A stretch of 64,000 nt of DNA from a virus. How positions within the stretch are numbered: the first letter of the stretch is position 1; the number at the start of each line of letters is the position of its first letter. This document shows, piece after piece, positions 3,798 through 29,420 of this stretch. Below the pieces are notes generated by a model, which was not told where the DNA came from, ran no database searches, and worked only from the letters and a program-made list of their open reading frames with translations. Where the stretch lies: positions 1 to 64,000 of IMG/VR virus record IMGVR_UViG_3300028610_000244. One strand, 5' to 3'. The position numbers and the translations under genes were made by a program.

Positions 3798-4448
3798 TCA
3801 CCTTGCTCCTATGAATGTCACCTTGTCTCTGTACTTCTCTTGCATCTGCGTTATGAGTTTGGAGCTGCATCGCTTGGCGATACGTTGCTGCTGCTTCGCG
3901 GGATAGCCTTTGTGCAGCTTCTTTGGCCGTCTGGTACAGCTCAGATAGTCGGATAGTCTGTCGGCACGGTAGCCTTGGCCGAGATCACGCAGGAGCCGCT
4001 GGTCATAGAAGACGAATAGCCCGTACTTCGGATTCAGCTCCTCAATAACCATGTTGGCGTCGTGCATGAGACTGAACGGCACGCAGAAGAGATACTCGTT
4101 GGGGTGGCATTGCCTGTGCTGCTTACCCTGGGCGTAGTTGATGTGCTTGAGCTTCTTCTGTCGCTCACCGTTAACGAGATCGTTCTTGGCTGTCTTGACC
4201 TCGACTTCGATGATCTTCTTGCCGGTGTCCGCAATGACATCGGCTCCCTTGAATTCATCGACGGCGATCCACTGTCGCTCGAATCGGAAGTATTCTAGCA
4301 ACGCAAGTTTTAGCTCGAATGATGTCACCGTCAAGGGATGCGTTTTGCGTTCTACCTGTCCATCACAGGTATGTCCCATGAACCCACCGCCGCCCTTGGA
4401 GTCACACCACTGGTCTTTCGGTAATTTATGGCATGGGTATTCAATCAT
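3798..4448 (-). CDS. Putative PD-(D/E)XK nuclease
   Basis: A 216-residue protein with the core GADVIADTGKKIIEVEVKTA: an Asp, a turn, then E-V-E-V-K, the PD-(D/E)XK nuclease pattern. A role in DNA processing or host DNA degradation is inference. The start ATG at 4448 (MIEYPCHK) has GAGG 7 bp upstream and an ATGA overlap with a 29-codon gene; an upstream in-frame start at 4490 is less likely because it would swallow that small gene. Confidence 0.7.
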   Translation of the reverse strand: MIEYPCHKLPKDQWCDSKGGGGFMGHTCDGQVERKTHPLTVTSFELKLALLEYFRFERQWIAVDEFKGADVIADTGKKIIEVEVKTAKNDLVNGERQKKLKHINYAQGKQHRQCHPNEYLFCVPFSLMHDANMVIEELNPKYGLFVFYDQRLLRDLGQGYRADRLSDYLSCTRRPKKLHKGYPAKQQQRIAKRCSSKLITQMQEKYRDKVTFIGAR

Positions 4449-12429: not shown

Positions 12430-12457
12430 AGTATACACTATATCCGGCAAGATGCAA
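12430..12457 (-). promoter_or_regulatory. TTTGCAT/TATACTTTAAGT promoter (island)
   Basis: Minus strand: TTGCAT (12452-12457), 16-bp spacer, TATACT (12430-12435), then TTAAGT. An AT tract (AAATTTTATTTTCT) precedes the -35, like an UP element. It directly follows the stop of the 12472 gene and serves the 12379, 12249 and radical SAM genes. Confidence 0.8.
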
Positions 12458-27929: not shown

Positions 27930-28499
27930 TCATTCATATTTGTCGCCGTCTACTGTGAATTCCCACTCATTCGCCTCGATGGTTTCCTGGACAGCCTCGT
28001 CGCTGAGCATATAGTCGTGCTGCTTTGAGAGCATGGTCCCATAATCACCGCACAGGTCTTTCAGGAATTCGTCGCACATCTCTTTGTATTGGTCTGACTC
28101 AGTGAACTCCTCATAGTCAGGATCGAAATCATCCTGGGCCTCAAAGATCGAGCCCTGTACGCTGATAGCGTTCTGGAACTCCCAGGCGGTCTTGTACGTC
28201 TCACAGGCACCCTCTTGGGGCTCACAGCCTGCTACGTGTGGCTTACAGCCGCAGCCGTGGTTCTCCAGGACCAGAGCCGCAGCTTCCTCGGCACCTTCGA
28301 TCCATTTGCCGTTGGCGTAGATCGGATTAAGCCCGAACGCTACGAGCTTGAGTCCGATATTCTTGGCGTCCTCGAAGTCGCCGTCCCACCATTCATCGTG
28401 AACGTTGATGTCACTGTATGCCAGGATAGCAGTCTCTTTTGCCTCGTCCGATAATTCGTCAAACTCATAAACTTTGGTTGTTACTGTGTACTCTTTCAT
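27930..28499 (-). CDS. Unknown 189-residue acidic protein
   Basis: Begins MKEYTVTTKVYEFDELS, followed by DEAKETAI and DEWWDGDFEDAKNIGLKL; this YEFDELS-DEAK start is a recurrent phage family without known function. A Cys-rich stretch (HGCGCKPHVAGCEPQEGAC) sits mid-protein. Its ELSDE codons contain a TTATCGGAC copy (28446-28454). Confidence 0.68.
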   Translation of the reverse strand: MKEYTVTTKVYEFDELSDEAKETAILAYSDINVHDEWWDGDFEDAKNIGLKLVAFGLNPIYANGKWIEGAEEAAALVLENHGCGCKPHVAGCEPQEGACETYKTAWEFQNAISVQGSIFEAQDDFDPDYEEFTESDQYKEMCDEFLKDLCGDYGTMLSKQHDYMLSDEAVQETIEANEWEFTVDGDKYE

Positions 28500-29026: not shown

Positions 29027-29068
29027 AAAAAAAAGCTGGCCCACGGTGCTTATCAAGAGGGCCAGCTT
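29027..29068 (-). terminator. Rho-independent terminator
   Basis: A perfect 10-bp stem, AAGCTGGCCC (29033-29042) with GGGCCAGCTT (29059-29068), 16-nt loop, followed on the minus strand by a run of eight T. It ends the noncoding transcript from the promoter at 29393. Confidence 0.92.
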
Positions 29069-29386
29069 GTATGCCATATTTAAGTCGTGGGTGCCCGCCG
29101 ACGCGGGGATCGTAACCCGTTCACCCCCAACCGCAGATGCAGCTCGCTACACCGCTCTGCCGACATGCGGGATTGTGGGTGGTTTCAGTTCTATCGGCCC
29201 CTGTTGTCGGACAGGGCACAATGCGATTGAAGATCAGTCTACAGAATATTATGATCCAAGGAAACATGAGGCACAGGCAGAAGGGGTTCGACTGCCCGGC
29301 CCAATATTTCCGGGAATGGGCTAAACTACGAATGCTTCATATTGACCTCCACGATAAATAATATTGTTTTGCCTTGTCCTTCATCT
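29033..29386 (-). ncRNA. Self-contained noncoding transcript, about 350 nt
   Basis: This interval has its own promoter and terminator but no convincing gene. The RNA would contain several GC-rich hairpins, for example GCCCTGT...ACAGGGGC near 29200-29217 and a GGCAG/CTGCC arm at about 29276-29296. A perfect ribosome site (GGAGG) precedes an ATG at about 29340 that stops after four codons, so a short leader peptide is possible. A T-arm-like GGGTTACGATCCC is present but no full tRNA cloverleaf closes. Confidence 0.65.
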
Positions 29387-29392
29387 ACTTAA

Positions 29393-29420
29393 AGTATAAT
29401 ACATTTTCACCAGGATGCAA
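29393..29420 (-). promoter_or_regulatory. TTTGCAT/TATACTTTAAGT promoter of the noncoding RNA
   Basis: TTGCAT (29415-29420), 16-bp spacer, TATACT (29393-29398), TTAAGTAG. Confidence 0.82.

Follow-up and report, generated by a model that had tools for sequence, protein, structure and literature searches.

In lambda bar-type minigenes, a very short open reading frame (ORF) comes immediately after a strong ribosome site; to our knowledge, few non-coding RNAs of lytic-type phages have been characterised. The locus described here contains such a short ORF at the head of a longer transcription unit, and from its sequence we read the unit as a probable phage non-coding RNA gene (probability about 55%). 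The analysed window is a stretch of 64,000 nucleotides that forms the first part of a 97,868-base virus record (IMGVR_UViG_3300028610_000244). The record belongs to a tailed phage encoding a terminase, a portal, a major head protein, a T5-A1-like DNA transfer protein, a family A DNA polymerase and RtcB, with its long genes on the minus strand. The nearest IMG/VR relatives, recruited by their primase-helicase and DNA transfer protein, are G002, G003, G004 and G010-G015.

The unit is bounded by a promoter and a terminator. The promoter, TTTGCATCCTGGTGAAAATGTATTATACTTTAAG (29421->29388, minus strand), has a -35-like TTTGCA (29421-29416) and a -10 TATACT (29398-29393), which place the inferred transcription start near 29386. 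It belongs to a family, ATTTGCATC...TTATACTTTAAGTA, with 12 copies in the record, all on the coding strand (positions 12436, 13591, 22302, 27669, 28538, 28996, 29399, 32751, 33886, 37647, 52268 and 53597); the window holds four near-exact copies compared with zero expected from shuffles, and similar members of the class precede genes in G003. At the other end, an intrinsic terminator (29068->29022, minus strand) is formed by AAGCTGGCCC, a 16-nt loop, GGGCCAGCTT and eight Ts. A simple scan did not pick it up because its loop exceeds 8 nt. Its stem, already described as 10 bp long in an earlier note on this DNA, is perfect; on the two strands of the genome together, only three perfect stems of at least 8 bp precede a T run, and this is the longest (shuffled genomes contain 0-2 per strand). 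The same note had proposed an orphan 350-nt transcript; its anatomy holds, while the length is closer to 360 nt and the strand, which the note left unstated, is minus throughout. At the sequence level, this is the delimited unit, from promoter to terminator, expected of a non-coding RNA gene.

Most promoters of the 12-member class are followed by a short leader and then by a ribosome site and an ATG. This phage-specific family, kept in related phages, often continues into an initial transcribed stretch like GTGAGGA. Only two members have no normal-size gene behind them: the promoter at 29421-29388 and the one at 52290-52257. Because the latter drives a tRNA operon, the class does make RNA-only transcripts. 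That operon (52290-51600, minus strand) encodes tRNA-Ile and tRNA-Gln, carries a boxA-like leader, GAGGAACGAAGCTCTTTGA, common to the relatives, and contains further tRNA-like stretches (for example, 52085-51990) with the repeated spacer ACGC[AT]AT[TC]ATA between them.

No believable gene had been seen between the promoter and the terminator, and the coding analysis agrees: all six frames score as non-coding, and neither Pfam nor PHROGs has a match to the unit. The longest frames have a codon-usage score of -3.8 bits, compared with 13.9 +/- 6.4 for coding windows, and the best-scoring segment anywhere reaches 8.5, with shuffles averaging 8.2. Coding signal is absent, as it is from a non-coding RNA gene. 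A recoded TAG with read-through was considered and rejected; 11 of the 48 long genes end in TAG.

Part of the unit is conserved in a second phage. A module of about 130 nt at its 3' end (29090..29222, minus strand) is homologous to L030:12612-12768 of G003 (IMGVR_UViG_3300031280_000008), with 82% identity over 61 nt in a short-word search (E about 1e-9), an extended alignment of about 130 nt and its best-conserved core at 29154-29095. The proteins neighbouring the module are only about 35-45% identical between the two phages, and outside the module the region shows DNA similarity only in promoters and in two stretches of coding sequence (71%). In both phages the module occupies a syntenic place upstream of a homologous gene, which in the source phage matches phrog_5162. 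The G003 copy sits between a gene end and the next promoter, without a dedicated promoter or terminator. Looking for the interval in related phages, as the earlier note had suggested, brought up a conserved non-coding module and not a conserved protein. The phrog_5162 match itself (27930-28499, minus strand; function unknown) is in the region directly downstream of the unit. Many phages with genomes of about 100 kb or more carry relatives of this gene, and its G003 homologue has tblastn relatives in 75 phage records, including Acinetobacter, Caulobacter, Klebsiella and Pseudomonas phages.

Among the phage records, the IMG/VR and GTDB genomes searched by pattern, and the neighbourhoods of phrog_5162-type genes, the G003 copy is the only real homologue; a covariance search of 748 kb of collected loci added no other real one. 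Matches in Rhodobiaceae and Bacteroidales were isolated 25-nt matches and were rejected as homologues, as was a 16-bit match in locus L068 that sits where synteny puts coding genes. One genome search did not recover the known G003 copy, and we gave its negatives no weight; several relatives' sequences stop short of the corresponding region, so that absence there is uninformative.

Folding the two copies together with RNAalifold yields a junction of three helices, all on the minus strand. P1 pairs CC...CCGAC (29206..29215), invariant in both phages, with GTCGG.GG (29093..29102); P2 is the hairpin GCAGA...TCTGC (29133..29160), with three one-sided changes and all pairs kept; and P3 is the hairpin GGGRT/ATCCC (29105..29128), with one one-sided change, its pair kept, around the conserved loop GAACRGGTYACG. 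Two two-sided changes fall in the RNAalifold fold of these two sequences, both in a weak 2-bp stem, and do not amount to firm covariation. Compared with column shuffles, and with two sequences only, the consensus fold has p 0.03 by energy and p 0.10 by SCI. The comparison suggests, with modest support, that a three-helix junction is compatible with the shared part. When the full transcript is folded to its minimum energy, parts of the module take other pairings than in this two-phage consensus.

The several GC hairpins reported for the unit fare unequally against shuffling. A 5' hairpin of about 20 pairs (29260..29311, minus strand) stands out: the 110 nt around it (29342-29233) have a z-score of -3.5, and none of 200 shuffles is as stable. 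The 3' GC hairpins are no more stable than shuffles (z -0.9 to +0.3), nor does the GC-rich 3' module by itself exceed chance, and the whole transcript has a z-score of -1.9. A possible end-closing helix on the minus strand would join 29344..29360, which runs into the Shine-Dalgarno site, to 29077..29095. Its 12 bp with one 2-nt bulge (29360-29349 with 29092-29077) are equalled by 4 of 200 shuffles, and the minimum-energy fold extends it to 15 pairs. A resemblance between the plus strand near 29088-29119 and a type I-E CRISPR repeat hairpin was set aside: the stem is weaker in G003, and the transcript is made from the other strand. Among possible targets, a 14-nt stretch of perfect complementarity close to the start of the gene at 69295-70905 does not rise above chance (E 0.35).

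From these elements we propose the following course of events. The transcript, made by host RNA polymerase, would run for about 360 nt on the minus strand, from near 29386 to near 29027, and end at the terminator. The 5' part combines the ribosome site and four-codon ORF with the strong hairpin and the helix towards the 3' side; its probable role is to stabilise the RNA or to tune ribosome access. The other part, the conserved 3' module of about 130 nt, probably folds into the junction of P1, P2 and P3 and would expose the P3 loop GAACRGGUYACG. A role as cis leader of the next gene is unlikely, because here a terminator follows the module and in G003 an independent promoter follows it; we infer action in trans, with a host RNA or protein as the most likely binding partner during infection. 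Of the readings considered, we favour a genuine non-coding RNA, probably trans-acting; behind it we rank, in this order, a decayed gene, a small protein, a minigene and a degenerate tRNA. The regulatory or structural phage RNA for which the earlier note saw a candidate is the best reading of the unit and is partly supported, weakened by conservation in one other phage only, by the lack of the module's own promoter and terminator there, and by 3' GC hairpins that do not exceed shuffles.

The first of these alternatives is unlikely but the strongest of the four. The promoter, leader and Shine-Dalgarno site may be the remnants of a cassette that has lost its ORF, leaving an emptied slot; the transcript would then be a by-product, and the conserved 3' stretch either a leftover or an element acting at the DNA level. 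The leader, ribosome site and ATG are exactly where genes of this promoter class start, the ORF ends after four codons, and the small genes in this region differ widely among the relatives, all of which would suit a vacated gene position. However, no frame retains residual coding signal, yet the promoter, ribosome site and terminator are intact, and the similarity of the module in the second phage implies constraint at the nucleotide level.

We consider it improbable that the unit encodes a small protein. The candidate is a 48-aa frame (29267-29121, minus strand), homologous to a 49-aa frame in G003 that overlaps its upstream gene as ATGA. The two frames are 37% identical over 46 residues, both end in CxCGWG, and in one alignment the indels before the stop codon are mostly multiples of three. 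However, the codon-usage scores of both (-3.8 in the source phage, -13.1 in G003) are in the non-coding range; 29 codons differ non-synonymously compared with 8 synonymously, and all codon positions change equally, so that neither purifying selection on codons nor phage-like codon usage is found. In addition, the ATG of the 48-aa frame has no ribosome site in the source phage, there is no family match, and the DNA similarity runs on beyond the stop codon. A conserved protein of 48/49 aa was rejected on its codon usage and substitution pattern. The non-coding codon usage, the mostly non-synonymous changes and the similarity past the stop together indicate that selection appears to act on the nucleotide sequence. 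Another frame similar in both phages, AASxVGxExVTIP, was also rejected: in the source phage a stop codon lies directly upstream, no start codon is nearby and its score is within the shuffle range, and no phage match to it was found.

The third alternative takes the short ORF itself as the working part of the unit and the rest as its stabiliser, acting through rapid initiation and peptidyl-tRNA drop-off or through ribosome loading. The mini-ORF, ATG AAG CAT TCG TAG (MKHS; 29340-29326, minus strand), begins 5 nt after the Shine-Dalgarno site GGAGG (29346..29350), and the unit has in this respect the very short ORF and efficient ribosome site of a lambda bar-type minigene. The pattern GGAGG(N4-9)ATG is found at 28 places on the coding strand compared with only 3 per 98 kb on the opposite one, and by chance about 0.01 such sites would be expected in 363 nt; the perfect ribosome site attributed to this four-codon ORF is real. 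Reviews describe peptidyl-tRNA drop-off as arising from mini-genes and short ORFs (PMC8012679, PMC3856088). A minigene is nonetheless very improbable as the purpose of the unit: conservation lies in the 3' module and not in the mini-ORF, no homologue of the 5' half was found, and the whole 5' part is absent from G003.

Least credible of all is a degenerate or split tRNA, to which D-arm-like and T-arm-like stretches seen by eye (GCAG..CTGC and GGGTTACGATCCC), split tRNA genes in the relatives and the RtcB of this phage group lend some appeal, but neither ARAGORN, whether or not introns are allowed, nor the tRNA model of Rfam (RF00005) finds a cloverleaf, G003 does not keep the T-stem-like pairs, and tRNA identity was rejected. 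More broadly, the Rfam 15 covariance models give chance-level matches only (up to E 5-10) and place the unit in no family, in keeping with the first impression that tRNA or known-RNA folds do not close.

The relatives' RNA-only operons contain observations of their own. Four tRNA genes (Pro, Ser, Ser and Thr by ARAGORN) in three relatives carry insertions of 65-92 nt in the anticodon arm, each inside the RNA-only operon of its phage (G002:C1:15185-15323, locus L026; G004:C1:6724-6882, locus L031; G015:C1:4593-4763 and 4228-4369, locus L061; all on the minus strand); when these 611 kb were shuffled or reversed, 0-1 such calls resulted. Because G002, G003, G004 and the source phage encode RtcB, an RNA ligase, splicing by enzymes or a decoy for an anticodon nuclease deserves consideration. 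Split tRNA genes in RtcB-encoding phages may be a more interesting lead than the RNA unit. The same operons, and G003, hold a second conserved RNA element, GAACAACGAGGCGTCAACTAAAGACTGTCCACGCCTACAA-[variable hairpin]-GGAGAGTAAAGGGGCAGC (G003:C1:23320-23430, plus strand; G004:C1:6723-6620, G015:C1:4595-4490 and G002:C1:15185-15010, minus strand), whose hairpin stem varies in sequence between phages with its pairing kept. It has a possible pseudoknot, CTGTCC/GGGCAG, and a spacer like GCTTTTACTGTAGGTC upstream; its G003 copy has no Rfam match, and it is absent from the source-phage genome.

Returning to the non-coding RNA reading, the unit could conceivably be the first representative of a so far undescribed class of phage RNAs that act in trans, though we hold this only tentatively. 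In that case the conserved loop exposed by the three-helix junction would bind a host RNA or protein in the course of infection, and the RNA would come from a free-standing gene here and from a module downstream of a gene in the relative. The promoter and terminator are clear, coding content is lacking and the 3' module is conserved; the unit is a well-delimited candidate for the use of trans-acting RNA by lytic-type phages, and the conserved P3 loop is the first place to seek a partner. Like the phage group's own tRNA and tRNA-like genes (window 52260-51600; G002, G004 and G015), it would give an RNA-only transcript from the same promoter class, but it has no cloverleaf, boxA-like leader or shared element. 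Like lambda bar-type minigenes, it has a very short ORF directly after a strong ribosome site, but here about 300 nt of structured RNA come after the ORF, and conservation does not lie in the ORF. It differs from the described phage small non-coding RNAs in matching no Rfam 15 family in sequence or structure, and in having its conserved part in a single relative, there without its own promoter or terminator; with that class, however, it shares its own promoter and intrinsic terminator, the lack of a normal-length ORF and a conserved non-coding part.
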